From Coffea arabica (taxonomy: Eukaryota > Streptophyta > Magnoliopsida > Gentianales > Rubiaceae), in NCBI RefSeq assembly GCF_036785885.1, contig NC_092329.1, forward strand, positions 7,750,001 to 7,814,000: 64,000 nucleotides of DNA, given 5' to 3'. Below the pieces are notes generated by a model. It was not told where the DNA came from. It saw only the letters and a list, made by a program, of their open reading frames with translations, and searched no databases. Shown here piece by piece: positions 3,380 through 46,419 of the stretch. The stretch's first letter is position 1, and the number at the start of each line of letters is the position of its first letter. A program made the translations under genes and the position numbers.

Positions 3380-3452
3380 CGCCCACCGTGGGGCTCGAAC
3401 CCACGACCACAAGGTTAAGAGCCTTGCGCTCTACCAACTGAGCTAGACGGGC
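3380..3452 (-). tRNA. tRNA-Lys (anticodon CUU)
   Basis: The minus strand folds as a complete 73-nt cloverleaf with no intron. The acceptor stem is GCCCGTC paired with GGTGGGC (two G-U pairs) with discriminator G. The D arm holds the A box TAGCTCAGTTGG, the anticodon loop is CTCTTAA (CTT, reading AAG lysine), and the T arm carries the B box GGTTCGAGCCC. CCA is not encoded, as usual for nuclear tRNA genes. Upstream on the minus strand the DNA is AT-rich with TATA-like stretches, typical of plant tRNA promoters. No break or mismatch suggests a pseudogene. Confidence 0.97.
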
Positions 3453-13328: not shown

Positions 13329-16300
13329 TCCTTATACTATATAAGAACGATTTTAGAACTAGATTTCAACCGCAAGGCTGAGGCTATTTTGGAAATATGA
13401 GAGTGTTTGAAGAGTAATTGGAACATTGAGTATAAGTCATCATCATAGTTATTAAACCCAACCCGGGAAGGAACCCGGCGAAGGAGGTGGGTCAACGGGT
13501 TACTGGTTTAACCGGTGGATGAGTGGTTGAACCGGTGGGTCACTACATATATTTAAATATTATATTTCATAATTATTTATATAAGATATATGATATAAAT
13601 TGTAATAAATAATGCCATAACAAAAGCTCATTTAATTTAATTTGTTATAAAATAATTAATTCATATAAGAATCAATCAAATATAAAGTTATTTATTAATA
13701 TACCAAACTTCAAGTGTAAAATTTTATCTATATTTAGTGTAATTATCTAGCTTATTTATGAATTTTAAGTGTAAAAAATTATTAAAAATAATATTTATCT
13801 TTAAATGAATTATGTAATATGTTATTTTTGGAATCCATTTTATAACTTATAGAGTTTGGAGGGTAATAAATTTTTATTAAAAAATTCCAAATAAATTTGT
13901 TTTAGAGAAAAAAAGATAGAATTGAAAAAACATTTATATATCATAATAAAGCTACTATATCAACATATATGGAAGTAGTTTGGTGGTAAGCAGGCGGTAG
14001 TGTTGGGGCAGAGGTCCGAAGTCCGAGTTCCAACAATAGCAATATAATTTTTCCACAAAATTCGGTTAGTGACAAAACCGGCCAAAACCGGCCGGGTTTC
14101 CGGTTTAACCTGGTTCGACCGCCGGGTCGTTGACTAAGTCAACGGTCTCTTTGCACAAACGATCTGATTCCAAACCCGGCCCGGTCCAATGACCGGTCCA
14201 CCGGTTTGACCGGTTCGACCGTCGGGCCGGGCCGGGTTTAATAACTATGATCATCATAGCTTTAATTTTATTATAATTACTTATATAACCTTTCAGACAT
14301 TTAAGGTTAGGGGCAGGTTTGGTATGTTACAATGTTTGGTGCCAAGTTGAGTATCAAGTACAACTGAATAAAGCTTGTGTTTTGATAGAATTACATAAAA
14401 GTCCTTTTAATCATTTATTGTACTAACATCCAAGCCTTCCAATTTCCTGAAACTTTTCTCATCTGTTAAGAAATTAATTGGATGTTTACATAATTGGATT
14501 TTAATTACAATTAATTAACTTAATTGTTATCTAAACAATCATTATCATATTTATGTCCCCATGTTTAGCCGATACCCTTTCTTTTTTTTTTTTGGTTTCA
14601 CCTCTTTGGTTTTATTATGGCTATTAAATATTTGGTGGAATGCATAGCTTTTCCTTTAAATTGAGATGAGTTCTTTGGGTTTGTCTTCTTCGATTGTAGT
14701 TTTTTTTTTCTGATGATTGGTTTATTCAAGAACTCCATATAGTTTGCCTTTTGATACTTCTAATTTCAAAAACTGACTAATTGCATTGTTTTCCTTAGTA
14801 GATCTCAGAGATTCTGTCTCTGGTCAAAGTACAATTTGAGATAATGTTGTCACTTTCTAAAATAATCAGAAAAGTAATTTTATCATCTTCTCCTTCTCGG
14901 CCAAGGTATTATCTTTTTATTTAAGTCAAATAACCTTATTTCTCATGAACTTTCTCCTATTGTTCTTGATTCCAGGGATCTGTTGACTACATTCCAGCAA
15001 TTATAGTTCAAGTAGTTATTTTTTCATGTAATATGATTTGGAATTCAGCTTGTGTTTATTTTAATTGGAAATTTTATGATTGTAAAATTTATTAACTTAG
15101 AATTTTGTACTTCATTGAAACTAAAAAAGAAAATTAATCATGCTACATAGTACTAAGATGTCATTTGCACTCTATTTACTTTCCATGTTATGATCTCGTT
15201 CTTCTATTATACTGTTTATATAGTTTCAAATACAAAAAAATTGCTTTTTTTTGCTATCTAAAAGAATTTGTAGTGAATCTTGATGAGTTTAAATGCTTTA
15301 GCTACAGCACCATTTTGATTGCATTGTATTAATTCATTTACTCATAATTGTATGTTGTACAATGATAAATAATGTTTTTTGATTTGATTGAAGCAACTAT
15401 TATCCATAGTTCAAACGAGTCAATTAAGTAGAGATGTTATATTGGATACTTATACAAGTAAACATTGAAAAATATCATTAAGCAGTTTCTACCTATAGTT
15501 TGCAATTCAAATTCATATGAGGAATTTCTTCTGATTTTAGTTACCATTTTCTACAATTTCAAATTTAGAAAATATTATTTGCACCAATTTTTTATAATCA
15601 AGATAGTTTCAATTCAGATCTTTAACAATTATGCAGATTTGAACTTATTTATGAGATTATAAAGAAATGCCCCTAGCAAAAAACACCAAATTTGAATAGT
15701 TTCTACAAAATTTTGAAAAAGACCACTTAAGTTTCTTATTTTTCTATCATTTTTGGGCATTATTATCTTTGTAAGAAACATGTGATTAAGTCGTATTATG
15801 CCCACCAAATTATATAAATAGTTAGTCAAAAATAAAATTATTTTAGATTAGATTGGATGCAAAGTGATTGATGGATAAATTTGACTTGATAATTCAGGTT
15901 GAACTTAAGTCCAGGGAGAAATCAGAAGCATTGCTTGAGGGATCTTTCACGAACATATATAGATTCGAGAGATGAAGGGTCCAATTGATATTTTAAAATG
16001 TTTTATCATCTTGGATAAGTTTTAGAAGAGACCTTTGGATGCTTTTTAATTGCACTTCAAACATTTTTATATTTTCAAACTATCCTTATCTTTGCAGTTG
16101 AAATTCAAACATAATCTTTGATCACAACAGATTCTTATATAGTATAACGATAAGGATGTCTCATTGCACATTATTTTTATTGACTCAATATATAACTTAT
16201 GATTTTTCTATTAAAATCACATGATAAAATCATCATACTTCAGTTCTTATACTACGAAATATTAAACAATAATTATTAATTATCTTGAATCACGAGTACC

Positions 16301-16336
16301 AAATTCTCGCGCGTCGCGCGGGCTGTCCCTCCCTAG
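13329..16336 (+). mobile_element. Non-autonomous Helitron (candidate), 3.0 kb
   Basis: The 3' end carries a 7-bp GC hairpin CTCGCGC-GTC-GCGCGGG at 16306-16322, followed 14 bases later by CTAG at 16333-16336 and then T. This is the Helitron 3' terminus (hairpin then CTRR, inserted before T). The proposed 5' end is A|TCCTTATACTATATAAGAAC at 13329, so the insertion falls between A and T as Helitrons require. The 5' terminal sequence recurs in inverted form near the 3' end (TTCTTATATAGTATAA at 16132-16147). No Rep/helicase frame exists inside, and the interior is AT-rich. The 3' end is firm; the 5' end is inferred from the TC start and the inverted copy. Confidence 0.68.
13444..14249. mobile_element. 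hAT-like MITE nested in the Helitron
   Basis: The 806-bp element has termini CATAGTTATTAAACCC and GGGTTTAATAACTATG, a perfect 16-bp inverted repeat. It is flanked by near-identical 8-bp repeats, GTCATCAT (13436-13443) and ATCATCAT (14250-14257). Subterminal regions are dense in CCGG-type motifs (ACCGG, AACCGG), giving GC-rich ends and an AT-rich centre. A tRNA-like stretch near 13975-14040 may be part of the element or a small SINE inside it. Confidence 0.75.
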
Positions 16337-16351
16337 TATCTCAAATGAAAA

Positions 16352-16587
16352 CCACTGGTCCAATGCCTCGTGGCCACCTGGGAAGTCCCTCTTTGAGCTG
16401 TAGATGAGGGTTCGAATCTCACCTGAAGTGAAAAAATCTAAGGATTGTGCCATAACACTCCCTTGGTCTAGTTGGGTCTGTATACCCGCTAGCCCCTACA
16501 ACAGCCTTCTTAGGCTCCCTTTTCCCCTTAGATTATGATAGAGTAAGTTATACAAATGTATCGTTGCTGACCAAAAAAAAAAAAGAA
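16352..16587 (+). mobile_element. tRNA-derived SINE (family A)
   Basis: The head carries a Pol III A-box-like TGGCCACCTGGG and a B box GGTTCGAATCTC. The body ends in TATCGTTGCTGACC followed by a run of A. A 15-bp target-site duplication TATCTCAAATGAAAA lies at 16337-16351 and 16588-16602. A second copy of the family is at 51574-51811 in reverse. The left duplication begins exactly at the T that follows the Helitron 3' end, so the SINE landed next to that junction. Confidence 0.88.
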
Positions 16588-16602
16588 TATCTCAAATGAA
16601 AA

Positions 16603-17709
16603 ACGACTCCCAAGAAACTTCTAAAGAAAGAGAAGAACTCAAGGAAATAATATATAGGCAAAATTACCTCCTCCTGAATATGGAAAGTCAACTCATACAA
16701 AATCACTCTTGCTCTGGGTAGTAACTTTGACAATTTCATTTGTTCATGCTGCTTCTTGGGTAATCTTTGACGAGTACTTTGATCTGTCTCTCGTGTTTCT
16801 TTTTAGTTAGGATCAAGAAAAGTGGTATATTCCTTAAATATCTGATTGCCCTTAATTGCGTGCTGATCTGCTGCCAAGGTAGCCATTTTTCTGCAACTTG
16901 TTGCAATTGCATTAAAAAAGAAAATCTCAATTTAGCCGCCACAGTGTAGTTATATTCTTACAGTGGTGGAATTGAAGATTCCTCCACCTGCAGAGTTCAA
17001 GAAGATTGTGCTTTTAAACAATAAGCCAAGTCAAGCTGAAGCAACAAAAGATGCATAGGAAATGAACCAAAATGAAATCTTTGTAAAATCATTGGGGTTG
17101 TTCGAGTGGACTCTTGCAGATTTCTATACGTTGCAAGATTCGATTATTAGAGTTGTTTCTACTACTGTAAGATTCAGAGTTCGAATCGTGAACCTGACAA
17201 TTGGGATGAAAAGAGTGGCGAGGAAATAGAGGATTAAAAAAGAAGAAGAAGAAGAAGACGACATGTCGTCGTGAACTGTGAATATCATATATTTGCCATG
17301 GAAACAGGTAAATGCATAATTTAAGGCATGTGTTAAAAGATTAAAGGGACTATACAATTGTTGTAGTAACATAGTCCTATAAAATTAGATCCTTCTTGTG
17401 GTAAAATTTTAGATTAAAAAAAAATTCAAACTGATATTTTCGTTCAGGATTCATCAGTTTTTAAAGCTTAACTTGAAAAGCCAGAGTCATGAAGGAGAGT
17501 CTAGTGGGACTAATCAACACTTGCAGACATTAAAAAAAAAAAAAAAAAAAGGAAGATTCTGATTGAACCCAATCATGAAAGCTTCTTGTTACTTTCTGTA
17601 TTACTCTGTTAGTCTCCTCTCTTGAGTCTTTCTCCTTTTTGACTTCCGATAGGTGCTGAGGAGAAGGAGAATGGAGAAATAAGAAATCCAGAGAAAAGCG
17701 CGGAAGATT
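16603..17709. other. Spacer and probable 5' region of the EF-hand/TPR gene
   Basis: AT-rich DNA with an (AAG)n run near 17237-17257 and a poly-A tract at about 17531-17550. The last 150 bp or so before the ATG at 17710 probably include the promoter and 5' UTR. A GAGTTCGAATCG string at 17177 resembles a Pol III B box, but no full SINE can be delimited. No gene is seen. Confidence 0.5.
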
Positions 17710-20589
17710 ATGGGGAGAATAGATTTAGCTTTTCCAACAGAACTCACGACGACTGACACCAGGTTGGAGAAGGTGAAGAGAATCTTCCAGGTATTCGACC
17801 TGAACAAGGATGGCTGTCTGAACCGGGACGAAATGGCTGCCCTGGTGGTGGCTGTAAACCCCAGGGTCAAGTTCAGCAACGACCAAGTTGACGCCATCAA
17901 CAACGAGGTTTTCCTAACCTACGCCCCGTTCATCCATGGTGAAAAGGGCCTGACGATCGAAGGACTATTGTGCACCTACGACGATGGTGCCGGTGACATT
18001 GACCGTGACTTCGACGCCCTTGGCCTCGACCTCAACACACCCGTCCCCGACGCTGTGGGGGGTTCATCGAAGCCCACGACTATCCGTACCAGATTGGAGA
18101 AGGTGAAGAGAATCTTCCACCGATTCGACGCGAACGGAGATGGCGGTCTGAACCGGGACGAAATGGCTGCCCTGGTGGTGGCTACAAACCCCATGGTCAA
18201 GTTCAGCACCGACCAAATTGACGCCATGAGCAACGAGGTTTTCCGAACCTATCCCCAGTTCATCCGCGGTGAAAAGGGCTTGACGCTCGAGGGACTATTA
18301 TGCACCTACGACGATGGCGCCGGAGACATGGACCGTGACTTCGATACTCTTGGCCTCGACCTCAACACCCCCGTCCCCGACGATGTGGGGGGTTCATCGA
18401 AGCCCACGACTATCCGTACCAGATTGGAGAAGGTTAAGAGAATCTTCCACCGATTCGACGCGAACAGGGATGACGGTCTGAACCGGGACGAAGTGGCTGC
18501 CCTGGTGTTGGCTACAAACCCCATGGTCAAGTTCACCACCGACCAAATTGACGCCATGAGCAACGAGGTTTTCCGAACCTATGCCCAGTTCATCCGCCGT
18601 GAAAAGGGCTTGACGCTCGAGGGACTATTATGCACCTACGACGATGGCGCCGGAGACATTGACCGTGACTTCGATACTCTTGGCCTCGATCTCAACCATA
18701 CGGTAGTGTTCCATGAAACTTATAAGTTTCTGGACGATCTTGATATTTTGATTCAAAAGTTGAAAAAACCGAAACAAGCCAAAGTTGGGAAGATTAAGAA
18801 AATTGACAATAATTCAGATAAAATTTTCCAGCCGCAGATGTCAGATAAGGAAGTAAATTGGGAGGAGTCAGGTCAAAATTATACTGTTTTCGTGAAGGAT
18901 TTGGTTGATTTGAGGTCAAGGGCCGATAAGAATGGCTCGAGGGAAGAGGCATTTGATCGGCATATGGCGATCGGAAGAGTTATATATGATTACCGTTTGC
19001 ATAACGAGGCTTTGATCAGTTTCAGGAGAGCTTTGGAGCTGCAGCCAACAAATGTGGCAGCTCATTTTCGAGCTGGGAATTGTTTGTATGAGCTTGGTAG
19101 GCATGGGGAGGCAAAAGAGGAGTTTTTGCTGGCATTAGAGGCCTCAGAGGTAAATTTTAGAGATTGGGAGTACTTAATTCCTCAGATACATGTGAATCTG
19201 GGACTTGTGCTTGAAAATGAAGGAATGGTTTTTAATGCTTGTGATCATTATAGAGAGGCAGTTATTTTGTGTCCAACTCATTTTAGAGCTTTGAAACGAT
19301 TGGGTAGTGCACTTGTTGCTGTAGGCGAGTATGGGGCAGGCGTTGTAGCTTTAGAGGAGGCTGTTTTTTTGAACAGAGCTTATGTCGATGCATTCTATGA
19401 TTTGGCTTCAGCTTTAGTCGCTATGGGCGACGAAGAGAGGGCAATTATGGAGTTTTACAAGGTTCTTGAATTGAAACCTGGACATGTGGATGCTTTGTAC
19501 AATTTGGGTGAGCTTTTCATGGATACGGGTAGATATCCAAGAGCTTTTGAGATGTATACTCGGGTATTAGCAGAGTTGCCGAATCATTGGAAAGCCCAAC
19601 TTAGTAAGGCAGTATATTTGTTTGGAAAAAATGAAATTGAAGAAGCTAAGCAAGCTTTGAAAGAAGGTTTGAAAATGGTGAATGGAGTTGAATTGCATGA
19701 TCGCTTAGCATACTTGAAGCAGCTCCAGAAGAAGAGGTTGAAGGGGAAAGAAGGTGGCTTTGGGGAGGGAGCCTATATAATTGTGGAACCATCGAAGTTC
19801 AGGATGGCAGACGACAGTACTACTCTTAGGTTGGAACTAGCTAATGCTCTTCATATCCGGGCTTTTCAAAGGACTACTGGACTGAGTCGATGTGATGTTG
19901 ATCTTATAAAGAAGCAAATTAATGAATACTCTCTTCCAGATTCTGATTCTGGGAGCATTTTTGCAGAAAGATCCATCCGCAAGGCCTCCCTAGAGGGGAT
20001 TCTCCGTGAATTACTTAGTTTTTTGAAGCCTGAGACCTTCGTAGGTTCCGTTAAAGCAATAAACAAGAAAATTCTCTCTGTTTTTGATGAAGTTTATACA
20101 GGTAACATCGATATAGACTTGTTTTTCGCTGTTATTGCCCCTCTTTGCAGCGGTCCCCTGGAGAGGAGAAAAAGGGTAGCATATCATGCGCTTCTATGCC
20201 GGCCTGGCAATGAAGGTAGCAGCAAAATAAAGAAAAGTGATGCTCAAAGGTACATAAAACTGTTGAGGGCCATCTACATCCCATCTTTTGGTGTTAATGA
20301 TATTCTCGAAATAGACGACACCGATGAATCAATGGTTTCTTTGACAGAGTTCCTGGCAATGTTTGATGATCCGGATAGGGGTTTTGGTATCATGTCCACT
20401 CTGTTGAAGCTTGAAACTGGGAAAAGGAATGGTAGCTATGTTTGTGCAACCTGCCGATCTGCAATCATTGGTTCCCGCTTTAAAGAGATGGAATCCCACT
20501 TCAGTCTCTGTGGCCAGTGCTACAGCGAAGGAAAAGCGCCTTCCACCAGTGAACAAGAAGAGTACGCATTCAGAGAGTATGCCAACTGA
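17710..20589 (+). CDS. Calcium-binding EF-hand/TPR protein with triplicated EF-hand unit
   Basis: A single 959-residue frame without introns. It belongs to the plant family of Arabidopsis At1g05150/At2g32450, which is about 810 residues long and, as I recall it, has one N-terminal EF-hand unit. Here that unit of 110 residues is repeated in tandem, starting at residues 18, 128 and 238. The calcium loops are DLNKDGCLNRDE (30-41), DANGDGGLNRDE (140-151) and DANRDDGLNRDE (250-261); the third has Asp in place of the usual Gly at loop position 6. TPR helices occupy about residues 415-665 (e.g. ALISFRRALELQPTN, AIMEFYKVLELKPGHVDALY). Near the end are two Cys pairs, CATC and CGQC (about 912-939), a likely zinc ribbon. 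The Arabidopsis proteins read on past the equivalent of this stop; here a similar tail lies in another frame. Probable role: calcium-responsive scaffold. ATG 17710 is the first in frame. Confidence 0.93.
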   Translation: MGRIDLAFPTELTTTDTRLEKVKRIFQVFDLNKDGCLNRDEMAALVVAVNPRVKFSNDQVDAINNEVFLTYAPFIHGEKGLTIEGLLCTYDDGAGDIDRDFDALGLDLNTPVPDAVGGSSKPTTIRTRLEKVKRIFHRFDANGDGGLNRDEMAALVVATNPMVKFSTDQIDAMSNEVFRTYPQFIRGEKGLTLEGLLCTYDDGAGDMDRDFDTLGLDLNTPVPDDVGGSSKPTTIRTRLEKVKRIFHRFDANRDDGLNRDEVAALVLATNPMVKFTTDQIDAMSNEVFRTYAQFIRREKGLTLEGLLCTYDDGAGDIDRDFDTLGLDLNHTVVFHETYKFLDDLDILIQKLKKPKQAKVGKIKKIDNNSDKIFQPQMSDKEVNWEESGQNYTVFVKDLVDLRSRADKNGSREEAFDRHMAIGRVIYDYRLHNEALISFRRALELQPTNVAAHFRAGNCLYELGRHGEAKEEFLLALEASEVNFRDWEYLIPQIHVNLGLVLENEGMVFNACDHYREAVILCPTHFRALKRLGSALVAVGEYGAGVVALEEAVFLNRAYVDAFYDLASALVAMGDEERAIMEFYKVLELKPGHVDALYNLGELFMDTGRYPRAFEMYTRVLAELPNHWKAQLSKAVYLFGKNEIEEAKQALKEGLKMVNGVELHDRLAYLKQLQKKRLKGKEGGFGEGAYIIVEPSKFRMADDSTTLRLELANALHIRAFQRTTGLSRCDVDLIKKQINEYSLPDSDSGSIFAERSIRKASLEGILRELLSFLKPETFVGSVKAINKKILSVFDEVYTGNIDIDLFFAVIAPLCSGPLERRKRVAYHALLCRPGNEGSSKIKKSDAQRYIKLLRAIYIPSFGVNDILEIDDTDESMVSLTEFLAMFDDPDRGFGIMSTLLKLETGKRNGSYVCATCRSAIIGSRFKEMESHFSLCGQCYSEGKAPSTSEQEEYAFREYAN
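17761..18696 (+). repeat. Three tandem 330-bp coding repeats (EF-hand units)
   Basis: Units start at 17761, 18091 and 18421, an exact period of 330 bp, so the reading frame is preserved. Units 1 and 2 each have a full linker (PVPD..VGGSSKPTTIRT). Unit 3 stops at 18696, where the sequence joins the rest of the protein. Units 2 and 3 are nearly identical at DNA level; unit 1 is more diverged, which implies stepwise duplication. The units use many C- or G-ending codons, unlike the AT-ending codons that follow 18700. Confidence 0.95.
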
Positions 20590-22952
20590 AGCTGAAGTAG
20601 TGAAGGATGATGCATATGGGAGGGGAAAAAAATTCACATTCTTTGTGTAAACTCTCATTAATTATTTCATTTTTGCAGTAGAGACGGTAAAAATTTATGA
20701 TTCAATCAAAACTGTAACAGTTTATACGGAAATGTAATTGATAAAAGTGTTGCAATAACACATTCTTGACTCAGATTTTTTGTAGTAATATCTCTGTCTC
20801 CATGTCTTTGTGGTTTTTTGTTTCCGTCCCTAAATCTGTACGGAACAAAAATTGCATCATGATTAAAAGGAACAAAAAGAATTGACGAAACTTAAAGCAT
20901 AGTGAGCTGGAAAGCTTTTGTTGCAAGTGGTTTGGTTGGAATATCATCAAACGCCTTCTCAATGAAATACCAGAAGGACAAATATCTTTTTTGTAAGCCT
21001 ATAAACTTTTGTATCCTTTGAATATTGCTTTTTTCTTTGGAAAAAGTACGGTTGGCATCTGAACTGGAATCCGACATGACGTTTTATTTTTCTTGGAATT
21101 CAGGTGTTCTTGATTTTGTAGTATTAAATTTGTAGGCAGATATGATGTTCACTAAGCCTGGAATTGTAGGCGAAATAGATTGACTTAGCTGACATACTGT
21201 GGGTTTCAATGGACCTGCAAATACCTGATGGCGATGGCGTGTATTCTCTGGCTCGTAATTGGAGCACCATATGTCTAATCTACAATGGTTGCCAAACAAA
21301 GTGGTTCAAGTAAGAAGCTAACATCCAAAATTCAGCCGGCCCAAATTGTGTTTTGGAGTGAATGTCAGCTTAAATCTGTTTCAGTTTACAGTGCGAAGCG
21401 GCAACTGGTTCGAATATACATGTACGGTGGAATTTAGTTTGTCTTTCATCAGTCCTACGCCATCAACGAGCAGAGTTGAATCGAGTTTTAAAATTGACAT
21501 TTTTTTAATTAAATAATAAAAATATATGAGACATGTGTATAATTTTACTATTAAAATATATAAATTCTAACTGGTCCAACAAGCTAACGACCTGTGTATT
21601 CAACTCATTTCGACTCGGCTCACTCGCCAAGCTAATTCGAACTTGATATTAACTGAGTTCGAGTTGAATTTTGATCAATTCAACTTATCTCATTTATAGC
21701 CTTACTTCGAACTGACTTGATTCGTTCTCAATCCTAATCCATCTTCAAAATTGAACTCAATTAGTCAAAAAATATTAACATGTTATGGTGACATTGTTGG
21801 TTAGACTTTCAAATTCTTTTTTCTCCTTTGCTCTTTTCCTTTGGAGTCGCCCTACGGAAAAACAAAAAGAGAGAGAAAATAGCTCGCCATTATCATTCAC
21901 CATTAGTCGTTCGAGAATTGAAAAGTTAAAAGAGTATTAAACTGGGCCACTGGCTCAGACGAAGCAAAATATTTTCGATGCGGCCACGTCACATACCCCA
22001 TTACAATCGGGCAAGATTCATGAAGATCGCCATAAGATATTAGATATGGGCCTATACCAATCTACCATCTTAATATTCGTATGGTGCCTAGGTCATTTGA
22101 CTTTTCAAGCACTTGTACACTATACCAACTATCAATTCTATGGTAGCTACAAAATGACTTTTTCTCCCTGCAATAAATTGCACAAGGACAATGGAATCAC
22201 GTTCTTAGCAAGTTCAAAATACATAAACCCCACAATCACGATTCTAAAAAAATCTTAGACTTTTCTAAACAATTGACAAAAGCGAACTTCTAATCTCCAA
22301 ATTTCTAAACAACAATCTTGATCCACTCCACACCCACAATTTATCGAAATTTCCAACCACAAATCACATTTTGTTTAAGCCCTGCATTCGACTTTTCTAG
22401 ATTTGGATCTTGACACCCTTGGGTTGGAATCAAATCTTGAGCACCAGCGATGAAATTAGGGTTGTTGAGAGCGTACTCGCTCCATTCTTAAAGGCATTGA
22501 AAAGTATTACTACTAAACACGTACGCTTTAGGTAAAGTCCTTTCTCAACAATGATACTACTTTGCTTCAATGTTTCTATGACAAATTGTGGCTCATAATG
22601 AGGTTTTGAAAATTGTTGTGGAATGAAAGCTTTTGCCGCCCTAAACTTTTCTTTGCCCAAAAATCACGAGATATGTCCTTCCTTAACATTGTTGCTTCCC
22701 TAACCACTCATTCCAAAATGCCAACCAATTCCGCTCATCCTCGTTCAAGGATTTTATGATGGTCTTTGTCCTCAAATGAAAGGGATAGGATACCTCCCCA
22801 ACGCCCCCGGTACAACCACAATTGGATGGATATAGCTATACATACAGCGAATTTGGGCCTTTTGTAAAACCCATTAAAATCCAGTCCAACTCTGAGGGTC
22901 AAAATCACGCTATTTCTAATGGTGAAAATTCACGCTAAGAGTAAGTTGTATG
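20590..22952. other. Spacer with old repeats, no clear gene
   Basis: It begins with the 3' flank of the EF-hand/TPR gene. 21560-21780 is a diverged repeat rich in TCGA/GAGTT-type words. Around 22430-22780 the minus strand has a 76-residue frame (KAFIPQQFSKPHYEPQF...) with a protein-like look but no family I recognise. It could be a gene or transposon remnant. Confidence 0.4.
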
Positions 22953-41800: not shown

Positions 41801-43730
41801 TAAAGGGACTGTAGAATTTTTGTTCTTTTCCTTTTTCACTTTTGTCGGCAAAAAAAATTATACAGTGGCTTGCAACTCATAAAGATTAAATTGGCCTGTT
41901 TACAGTTAAAACATGCATGGATCATCACCAAAAAGATCAAAATGGCCTGTTTAATTTGTTAAGTGAAAAGTTTTACTTTCTCATTTTTTTCTTTAATTAG
42001 TTCCATCTAAATGAAAATTGACCCTAATCAATTTTTAGGTAATATTTCAGTAGACGTAAAATTACCGTCTGCATTCTCCTCCTACGTGGTGGTATAGATA
42101 CTGAGATAAACTATTTTAGGGTATTAGGCAACTTTCATACCCTATCATCTGCTACTCAATGAAGGAATTTTCATGGATGGTTTCACTTTAATTTCTTCAG
42201 GATAATTAGCCCATCTTTTGATCTGGTCAAACTTGATGGAGATGTTTTCTGTGAGGGGGTTCGTGTTGCCGGCCGGAGCTGGTTCTTTAATTATAACTGT
42301 TAATTTGTACTATCAATTACTTAAAGCCGGCGGTAACTAATTTCTAATAATTCTCCAAAAAAAAAGGCGGAGAACGAGCCAAGTGGTGATCAGAGGTCAT
42401 ACTAAGCAAAGTCCGTTTGTGCTATCTTTGGTACCCTAAAAGACAAATAACCAAGCCAACCACAATTCCAACTCCTCCACTCAGGCACAAAAAATAATAA
42501 TAATAATAAAAAAAAAAAGAGGAAAAGAGGGCACCGACTCTAAAAGCTCTAAAATAAAAATATTTCATGTCTCCACTAAATTGTGGTGTGGTATAAGTAA
42601 TTTTTATCCAAACGAGATCATTAATTTTTTTTTTTGGGGGTTAGTTTCTGTTCAGTGACCATATCCATCTCCAGAACCACTCTTTTGAGCTCCAATAGTA
42701 AAACAAAAGCCACAATTACAATTTACAAGGCAATACAACAATTTTGTTTGATTCAAGAAATTCAGATATTGGCTGATTAGATCTTACATATTTTGGTAAT
42801 TATATATGCCTCACGTGAACTAGATCGATCTTTGCCAATTGAGTAAATGCATCATTGGTTTTTAATTTAAAACGTTTGACAACTGTTTTTTTGACATTTT
42901 TATTTTATGAAGCATGTCATTTTTTTCACACGTAATTATTCTTGGTTCCTTGTGTGCACTATGGAGTTTGTCAATTTCGTCATATGACCAGGAAATGGAG
43001 GCTGCCAATTCCTTACATCATTATTGTTATCTGTCTTGATTTTTGAATTGAGTTTCCTCAAAAAAGAAAAATTCGATCTAACATTTTCCTTATTATTGAA
43101 TTGAACCGGCTCTAATTCATGAAAAGGCTTTCGCACTTGAAATATTTTAAACCATTGAGCTGATTTACTGTCCATATACTGGATATGATTTGAACAGGTC
43201 CTACTTATTTCTAGTACTAATTGGAAACTGTCACAAAAATTTATAAAATTTTTGTCGAAGTACAAGATTATTATTACAACTCTGTTGGTAAGATGTCCAA
43301 GTAAATCCTAGTATATTAATATGATTATTGGCTAGTCTTTTATAATTTGGATTTGGCAGAGCCTCAACTGGCAAAAGATATAAAGTTGGTTCCTTGGCAT
43401 CCACTCTTGAGGCTCAAAGATGTATATATATGTATATACTTCTCTTTGATGAACTTGACCTTTCATTGAACTCTTCTCTCTGAAGCCATATTGTGACTTC
43501 TTCTCCTTTATGTGATTTGAAATTCTTTACAGGGCTGAAGATTAAAATGGTATGCTAATTTATTCTTCACATCAAGATTTATGATCACCTGTTTATTTTA
43601 TACGTAACAGCAGAGAGTTCAAAGCTCCTGCAACAAATTAATTCTTTTTTGTTTCTTGCATCACTCATCAGGTAGATTTTATACTGTTTGACAAATTCAG
43701 TGAACAGCCAGTTTGTTAGAAGAGGTTTCC
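38861..43730. other. Long spacer before the TPR gene
   Basis: No recognisable gene. Minus-strand frames at 39689-39889 and 39963-40247 look like chance. The last 300 bp or so before 43731 hold a TATATATATGTATATA stretch (43422-43438) that could be the promoter of the TPR gene. A short leader intron is possible between about 43550 and 43675. Confidence 0.45.
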
Positions 43731-46419
43731 ATGGCAGAAACTCCAGAGATTAGAAAGGAGGGGTGTGGACTGGTGGGAGCAATTTTGCAACGTGGGGTGT
43801 TGAAGCCAAGAAAGACATCAGAGTCGCCAATTCCTCGGGACAGCAGCAAGAGAACACCTGTAAAGTTTCTGAGGTTTTATGCTTCAAAGAGGCAAAGAGG
43901 CAGCTCGGACGAAAATGATATGGCAGCCGCCATGGACTCCTCAATTGTAGCTAAACCTCCTCTGAAGCTAGCTGAAAAAGCACCGCGAAAACCGAGCATG
44001 GACAGCACAATGTTTTCCACCGCACAAGGCCACAGAACTGGACATTCTAGTAAAAGCTCAATGTCATTTGTCAACAATTCAAGTATGATCAGTACCTCGC
44101 AAGTAGTGAATTCTGAGTACACTCGGATGTTAAGGAGGGAACCAACCTTCACTTCAAGCGAGTTTAGTGTGACAAGTCACAGGAAATCCAATGTCAGTAG
44201 CAAGGGACATCTGTATCGTGCGTCCACAGGCAGTGTTATGCTTGTAGGCCATTTGGGAAACTTGAAGCAGAAAGGACACAATAAATCATTGAGTGATTCT
44301 GCGAATTCTAGGACTGTTCGGAAGGGAAATCTTAGTGGTAAATTTGCCCCGGCCACAGCTGCAATGGGGAACATTCTGAAGAAGCCAACTGAAAGGAACC
44401 ATACTTCTGGTTCGTTGAATAAGTTGGACCCTGAGGCACTGAAATGTCTTGGTAATGAGAAGTACCAGGAGGGAAAGTTCGAGGAGGCATTGGACCTGTA
44501 CAATCAAGCAATTGCTATTGATCCAAGCAAGGCATCTTTCTATAGCAACAAGAGTGCTGCTTTGATGAGTTTAGGCAATCTCATTGAGGCAGTTTTTGAG
44601 TGTCAAGAGGCCATCCGACTGGATCCGTCGTATCATAATGCTCATTATCGTTTGGCAAGATTGTTTATCAGGTATAACAATCTGAACTTGCTCAAAATGA
44701 AATCATTCTAGAATAAATGAAAACTTGATATCTTGTCATCTGCTGGAATGTCTGAAACCTAACAGAACTTATCGTTGTCCGTACAATCAAACAGATTGGG
44801 AGAAGCAGGGAAAGCTATAGATCACTTCGAGAAATCAGGGCGCAAGGCTAGCAGTAAGGACATTTCCAATGCTGAGAATCTTGAGACACACCTAAATAGG
44901 TGCTCCAGAGCTCGGAGACGAAAGGATTGGGAGACATTGCTCAATCACAGTCAGGCTGCAATAGCAATGGGTGCAGATTCAGCACAACAGGTTTAATATC
45001 TTATTCCATGAAGAAAATTCTAATCCCTAAAAATTCATTGTCCCATGTTCCATGCAGTCATTATACTGTTTGACGCCTTCTGTTTCTCTGTCCTTTTGAA
45101 GATCTATGCTATGCAAGCAGAGGCCTTGATGGAACTCTTCAGGGACGACGAGGCATACAAAGTTAATGATGAAGGACCTGATTTTGACATTGAACTTCAT
45201 ACTAGGTTTCTTGGCTCAGCTGAAACTGCTAAGTTATTGGTAGTTCGATCTAAGATCTTCATGGCTGCAGGCAGGTTAGTAGAATAGTCATCTCTGGGCC
45301 TACAAGTTCATTCAATCCGACTCTATGTATCTTGAGGAATCAGTTAATTCAAGATAGCTGTGGTACGAGATATATTGTCTTGGAAGGAGGATAAACAATC
45401 CAATTACTACCATGTAACACCAGCATAAATAAAGAAACAAGATTTAATATTCTAAACTGGACTTTGCCTTTGATGGTTTGACAGGTTTGAGGATGCTGTG
45501 GCTGCTGCAAGACACGCAGCACGACTTGATTCCAGTGATGATGTGAAATCACTTGTAAAGAAGGTTGATTTTGTTGCATCAACACGGATAAAGGGAAACA
45601 GGCTTTTCAATGCATCAAGGTATGCTGAGGCTTCTCTTGCATATACTTCAGCACTAGAGGAAGTGCCATACAACTCTGTCTTGCTTTGCAATAGAGCAGC
45701 TTGCCGATCTAAACTGGGACAATATGAGAAAGCAGTTGAAGATTGTACAGAGGCCCTTAAAGTGCGACCTTCGTATAGCAAAGCCAGGTTGCGAAGGGCG
45801 GATAGCAACGCTAAGGTAGCTCTCAGTAGAAGGACATAATTTCTTGTCCAATTTCCTTGGCTTTTCAACAGTATAAAGAAAAAAGAAACAAAAACCTGGA
45901 TGCCTTGCTTTAATTCCAATTCTATGAACAACAGATCGCTTATTCTCTCTCATGTTTCATATGATTTAGCTTGAAAGATGGGAGGCAGCACTGGAAGATT
46001 ATGAGACGCTGATGCACGTAGTTCCCGGGGATGAGGAGGTAACAAAGGGATTCCAAGAAGCAAGAAAGCAGGTGAAAAAGCAGCACAACTATGAGGTAGA
46101 AAAGCCAAGAACCAGTTCTGATTTGAAGTCAGTCATTAGCAACAAGCCAGTGGGAAAAATTCTCACAGCAGCCGGTAATTCACAATTTGATTGCCAATCC
46201 TGCATGCATTTGTATTTTTATCGGGTTTAATTGTTTATCAATGCCTACACTTCCTTACTGCTTTCGATGGATACAGAGTTCTATGGTAGTAGTACCAGCT
46301 TCAAGCTCTCAAATGGGATTGATTTTGATACCAGCAGTGGAGCAAATTGTGCTGCTGCTACTAGTACTACTGAATTCGGCCGCTCTGTGACAACCTTGAG
46401 AGAAATTTTCACCCATTAA
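43731..46419 (+). CDS. TPR12: TPR protein, TTL-related but without thioredoxin domain (TPR12-like)
   Basis: Six exons with GT-AG introns join in phase: 43731-44671, 44795-44990, 45102-45274, 45485-45815, 45970-46174, 46277-46419, giving 662 residues. The ATG at 43731 heads MAETPEIRKEGCG; the open frame before it lacks another ATG. The first 230 residues are Ser/Lys-rich and probably disordered. TPR motifs begin at LNKLDPEALKCLGNEKY and continue in two blocks (about 230-310 and 460-590), like the TTL family and TPR12 (At1g78120). TTL proteins end in a thioredoxin-like domain. Here the reading frame ends in a Ser/Thr-rich tail (TTEFGRSVTTLREIFTH), and no thioredoxin-like sequence follows. Likely a cytosolic scaffold or Hsp90/Hsp70 co-chaperone. 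The TPR12 assignment rests on gene order as well as similarity. Confidence 0.85.

Follow-up and report, generated by a model that had tools for sequence, protein, structure and literature searches.

The window is the whole stretch of DNA that was analysed, 64,000 nucleotides on contig C20 of a 1.2-Gb plant assembly. It contains a gene with one uninterrupted frame from ATG to TGA (17710-20589, plus strand). The focal gene encodes a protein of 959 amino acids with an EF-hand array, a tetratricopeptide repeat (TPR) array, and, towards the C terminus, a ZZ-finger-like Cys motif. The first-pass annotation had called the gene intronless. The term is read from the frame, which is open across 959 codons, and the trait is not special, as the 803 codons of a paralogue in the same genome are uninterrupted too. 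A retrogene origin is unneeded to explain the lack of introns for the same reason. GC3 is 0.70 in the EF-hand part (17710-18708) versus 0.40 outside it, and the paralogue is divided likewise (0.63 versus 0.44).

The gene contains three direct copies of a repeat at an exact spacing of 330 bp. Their 300-nt matched cores lie at 17745-18044, 18075-18374, and 18405-18704. The second core is 87% identical to the first, and the third is 84% identical to it. Tandem Repeats Finder retrieved 17758-18696 with a period of 330, 2.8 copies, 92% matches, 0% indels, and a score of 1584. The repeat is far beyond chance. The first-pass claim of three 330-bp coding repeats in frame is borne out by the repeat search, Tandem Repeats Finder, and the single 959-codon frame.

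All parts of the gene are on the plus strand. Leader codons (17710-17760) come first; their last 16 bases fall within the matched repeat and are similar to the final part of the linker between units. Unit 1 (17761-18090) and unit 2 (18091-18420) each encode a putative EF-hand pair and a linker, with the loops DLNKDGCLNRDE and DANGDGGLNRDE. Unit 3 (18421-18696) encodes a putative EF-hand pair without a linker, with the loop DANRDDGLNRDE. It has the most haplotype differences of all units. A junction into the conserved body (18697-18756) follows, from which the post-unit linker of the paralogue is absent. The TPR region (19003-19674, residues 432-655) has approximate limits, set by where the TPR-type Pfam models match best. 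The ZZ-finger-like motif (20437-20535) has four Cys (residues 912, 915, 934, and 937). The TGA stop and an out-of-frame remnant of the paralogue's C-terminal tail lie at 20587-20625.

An EF-hand loop was taken as 12 residues with Asp or Asn ligands at positions 1, 3, 5, and 9 and Glu at position 12. The ligands (D, N, D, N, E) are intact in all six focal units of the two haplotypes and in both paralogue units. Read from the letters, each unit appears to be an EF-hand pair, with a canonical loop and a degenerate second hand in which the usual acidic ligands are missing. The EF-hand_1 model gave 26.3, 24.3, and 14.3 bits for units 1, 2, and 3 of C20, so that one of the three passes the cut-off of 25.4 alone. 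The whole protein scored 54.7 bits with two stretches on C20 and 58.5 bits with three stretches on C19. The Asp noted earlier in the third loop, at position 6, is present on C20, the haplotype of the window, only; C19 has Gly. Asp6 fits the passing of two stretches on C20 versus three on C19. The pair model, EF-hand_7, gave 61.9 bits for the whole focal protein. Single units gave 24.8, 24.9, and 21.6 bits against a cut-off of 30, with at most 48 of 67 positions matched, in the first two thirds of the unit.

In the PDB, the first EF-hand of the unit matched EF-hand sensors, among them calsenilin, KChIP, and calmodulin (best 60 of 104 matches, E up to 0.1). The best match was calsenilin 2jul (E 3.3e-6). 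Such sensors are not known to have a TPR array. The focal protein matched TPR_2 (E 4.8e-22; 76.6 bits, cut-off 27) and TPR_1 (E 6e-19; 67.4 bits, cut-off 27.8). By Pfam, EF-hand lies N-terminal of the TPR array within one protein in the focal C20 copy, the C19 copy, and the paralogue. Structure models were too poor for use (mean pLDDT 42.9 for the unit from a three-row alignment and 35.4 for the whole protein alone).

The Pfam ZZ cut-off of 21.4 bits was reached by neither the focal protein (13.8 bits) nor the paralogue (15.3 bits). For the paralogue, 17 of 19 PDB matches at E up to 5 were to the ZZ domain of sequestosome-1 or PRT1, the best at E 0.018. One of five matches to the focal protein has a ZZ domain (dystrophin, the best, E 0.35), and three others are LIM proteins. 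In that dystrophin alignment, which is sub-significant, 20071-20190 and 20437-20535 align in order with the pre-ZZ stretch and the ZZ domain. A dystrophin-like EF-hand and ZZ C terminus was set aside as a weak lead at this E value.

A second three-unit copy, also of 959 amino acids, was retrieved from C19. The C20 and C19 copies differ at 66 of 2,880 nucleotides, are of equal length, and contain no stops. When the window was aligned with 50 kb of C19, seven blocks exceeded 2 kb, all of them collinear and 91.7-97.4% identical. A number of shorter blocks are less identical, down to about 71%. For MutS_V, 38 matches grouped into seven genes, each present twice in the genome. For six of these genes, the two copies lie on adjacent contigs (C3/C4 twice, C5/C6, C7/C8, C11/C12, and C15/C16), and the seventh occurs twice on C2. 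From this pairing and the collinearity, we take C19 and C20 to represent the two haplotypes in a phased diploid, with a recent tetraploid as the alternative. Tandem repeats are prone to mis-assembly, but an assembly artefact is very unlikely here, because the triplication is present on two separate contigs with 66 differences between them and the units have diverged from each other. Upstream of the gene, 13330-17247 is mostly missing from C19, where about 170 bp is matched. The part at 14251-16339 matches a high-copy dispersed element with 2,891 candidate copies; among the 40 that were scored, identity reaches 96%. The element ends about 1.4 kb upstream of the focal ATG.

The genome-wide protein search gave eight matches: two focal copies, two one-unit paralogues in two pieces each, and two short C19 pieces. 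The paralogue starts at C20:3077114 and C19:1594590, about 4.7 Mb from the focal gene on both haplotypes. It contains 803 amino acids in an uninterrupted frame and one unit on both haplotypes. The first-pass reading of a triplication relative to a one-unit family member is supported within the same genome. Because the one-unit paralogue is present on both haplotypes, one unit is probably the ancestral state. At1g05150/At2g32450-type members in Arabidopsis presumably have one EF-hand unit as well. The three units set the focal protein apart from its paralogue but do not place it outside this family.

The two proteins have in common the EF-hand unit, the TPR array, the ZZ-like C terminus, and the uninterrupted frame. 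Their amino acid identity is 70% over focal residues 328-958 and 69% over residues 11-120. The paralogue has features of its own: a single unit, a long linker after that unit, an SDAGWSR segment, and an extra C-terminal tail of 25 residues with Cys787. Missing from the focal protein are the post-unit linker, ten residues inside SDAGWSRELGPST, and the final 25 residues, which include Cys787. The ten-residue gap takes up much of the segment with a published Arabidopsis phosphosite. Immediately upstream of TGA, both focal copies contain an additional base relative to the paralogue, which puts the tail remnant out of frame. These differences could be losses in one protein or gains in the other; the printed Arabidopsis peptides match the paralogue.

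No neighbour gene was found to be shared by the 64-kb window and the 30-kb surroundings of the paralogue on C20 (frames of at least 50 codons from the latter, E up to 1e-6). All hits of that search lay within 17719-20619, the focal gene itself. A collinear (whole-genome) duplication was set aside because the search found no shared neighbours; short-exon or anciently lost neighbours would escape it. The two short C19 pieces (C19:45778542-45778749) have 89% and 97% protein identity to the TPR region of the paralogue, and one contains an internal stop. The genome-wide protein search found no match for a counterpart on C20. They are perhaps a recent pseudogene piece.

Ka and Ks were calculated with a Nei-Gojobori script; with about 65 synonymous sites per unit, the values for units are rough. 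The focal and paralogue bodies differ by a Ks of 0.75, with a Ka/Ks of 0.25-0.26. Between units, Ks is 0.19-0.21 for units 1 and 2, 0.24 for units 1 and 3, and 0.081 (C20) or 0.132 (C19) for units 2 and 3. Between haplotypes, it is 0.032 for the whole focal gene, 0.037 for the focal body, and 0.015 for the paralogue. The tree of the eight unit sequences has the form (U1,(U2,U3)), and the two haplotype copies of each unit pair with each other. Bootstrap values are 93 for units 2 and 3 together and 100, 82, and 92 for the haplotype pairs of units 1, 2, and 3. Because of this pairing, both unit duplications predate the separation of the haplotypes. Counted by eye, 2 of 57 bases differ between the linkers that precede units 2 and 3, which is what a final duplication of a single linker-plus-unit block would give.

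Units 2 and 3 had been described as almost identical and their duplication as recent. The likeness holds for C20 (16 of 282 nt differ) and less so for C19 (31 of 282). The duplication is recent only loosely, its Ks of 0.08-0.13 being 2.5-4 times that of the haplotype split (gene-wide Ks 0.03). Gene conversion after the haplotype split, rather than age alone, would be another source of the likeness on C20. It would fit the lower count on that haplotype and unit positions 176, 177, and 256, where unit 3 of C20 has the state of unit 2 and unit 3 of C19 has that of unit 1 and the paralogue. We consider it rather doubtful. There are just three such sites, two of them adjacent, and conversion of C19 from unit 1 or repeated mutation fits them equally. 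The polarised excess, moreover, is mostly private to unit 3 of C19, with 11 changes versus 4 on C20.

The haplotype copies differ at 2 of 282 nt in unit 1, 4 of 282 in unit 2, 21 of 282 in unit 3, and 34 of 1,833 in the body (from codon 349). The other five of the 66 differences are in the leader, linkers, and junction. The excess in unit 3 has a p of 2.4e-6 against the body and 2.0e-6 against units 1 and 2 together, and it lies in nonsynonymous (p = 5e-7) and not synonymous sites (p = 0.31). Unit 3 was picked after the list of differences had been seen, which makes its p values flattering. The 21 differences are 17 nonsynonymous and 4 synonymous (Ka/Ks 1.31; p = 0.79 against neutrality). Fifteen could be polarised: four on C20, all replacements and one of them Asp6, and 11 on C19, of which 10 are replacements. 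Six are ambiguous.

The body contains 19 changes at 1,420 nonsynonymous sites versus 15 at 413 synonymous sites (p = 0.0056). The TPR-containing body is under purifying selection. Units 1 and 2 have 5 to 1 changes between haplotypes (p = 1.0), too few to tell. Between units within one haplotype, Ka/Ks is 0.51-0.87, and none of the six unit pairs is significantly non-neutral (p 0.08 to 0.82). The divergence of unit 3 fits relaxed constraint. The intact ligand codons are weak evidence, because by a hand estimate some 15 replacements spread over 94 codons would spare any five chosen ones nearly half the time.

The triplication within the gene is real and well supported, and it lies in a divergent duplicate. 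The best explanation, to which we give a probability of roughly 60%, is that the gene is a dispersed, divergent duplicate of the At1g05150/At2g32450 type, which has an N-terminal EF-hand pair, a TPR array, and a ZZ-like C terminus. Its body is constrained, and its EF-hand module would have grown in two steps into a Ca2+-responsive arm on a TPR scaffold. After the split from the paralogue, an in-frame tandem duplication would first have separated unit 1 from a common precursor of units 2 and 3. The 330-bp linker-plus-unit block would then have been copied again to give units 2 and 3. Both steps probably arose by unequal exchange or replication slippage. In the most likely mode of action, each unit would bind a single Ca2+ ion through its canonical loop, and the degenerate second hand would serve as a structural partner. 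A rise in Ca2+ would reshape the three-lobed N-terminal arm and alter binding by the TPR scaffold. Unit 3, the least constrained unit, may be a passenger. The first-pass suggestion of more calcium sites or a changed threshold would fit the ligands kept in all six units, but unit 3 is without detectable constraint between haplotypes. More tentatively, lacking the C-terminal Cys tail and most of the phospho-segment, the focal protein may act elsewhere and under other control than the paralogue.

The strongest rival is a decaying duplicate, in which the triplication is a neutral accident under relaxed constraint and calcium behaviour is unchanged. It is possible, though clearly less probable. Unit 3 has no detectable constraint (Ka/Ks 1.31, p = 0.79), the haplotype Ka/Ks is 0.36 for the focal body versus 0.15 for the whole paralogue, and the tail, linker, and phospho-segment are absent from the focal protein. 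Decay is opposed by the 959-codon frame, which is open on both haplotypes, and by the purifying selection that still acts on the body.

An unlikely alternative is that the units were kept by selection for calcium buffering or cooperativity and that unit 3 is diversifying between haplotypes. The nonsynonymous divergence of unit 3 is about sixfold that of the body (Ka 0.083 versus 0.0135; p = 5e-7), 14 of its 15 polarised changes alter the amino acid, and the ligands are intact in all six focal units. Its Ka/Ks is, however, not significantly above 1 (p = 0.79), and the ratio of nonsynonymous to synonymous changes in unit 3 does not differ significantly from that of the body (17:4 versus 19:15, p = 0.08). 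Relaxation fits these counts equally. Still less likely is a different kind of calcium sensor, membrane-free without the Cys tail, with no phospho-switch and a three-lobed arm, whose third lobes on the two haplotypes would lead to a segregating calcium response.

The gain of a calcium-binding module within one gene is a simple natural test of how sensor number tunes the calcium response. One genome contains the paralogue with one unit, the copy with three, and both haplotype forms of unit 3, so that they can be compared directly. The main interest is that ancestor-like and derived forms stand side by side. If the extra units do nothing, this is an ordinary repeat expansion in a relaxed duplicate.

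Published family members bear on the parts that differ. At1g05150 has EF-hand and TPR motifs as the focal protein does (PMC2778640; name in PMC3537754), with two predicted EF-hands (PMC2778640). Its S187, in a phosphopeptide ending SDAGW[S]R, was retrieved from a plasma-membrane phosphoproteome (PMC3537754). This peptide has a counterpart in the paralogue and falls at the ten-residue gap in the focal protein. A second phosphopeptide, DNDVPVpSY, was salt-treatment-specific and came from membrane fractions, although the protein was tabled as non-membrane (PMC2778640). Its Ser aligns with a Ser of the focal protein with differing neighbours; DNDVPVSYSG is present in the paralogue. At2g32450, of unknown function, was up-regulated in response to Ca2+ and is a SnRK2.10 client (PMC11174488). 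At1g05150 was among the up-regulated genes of an agp6 agp11 pollen-tube experiment (PMC3546934) and among the candidates of a sterol-mutant membrane study, where it was tabled as unknown (PMC3957024).

A poplar 'calcium-binding tetratricopeptide protein', Potri.005G234900, was S-acylated and enriched in detergent-resistant membranes (PMC4828459). It is likened to the focal gene by family name alone. Cys787 of the paralogue may be the acylated Cys, and the focal protein, from which it is missing, would be soluble. The idea of a lost membrane link is weakened because At1g05150 was tabled under non-membrane proteins (PMC2778640). Together, these reports suggest membrane association in the EF-hand/TPR family, though not a uniform one. 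Among the titles and abstract openings of the literature searched, none was about a multi-unit EF-hand/TPR protein. In the excerpts of an EF-hand review (PMC6471108), both mentions of 'tetratricopeptide' are in lists of enriched terms.

The window contains two other features. A second TPR-bearing frame of 335 codons lies at 43704-44711; by eye, it is similar to TTL-type TPR proteins. A tRNA gene was found on the minus strand at 3380-3452 (67.1 bits).
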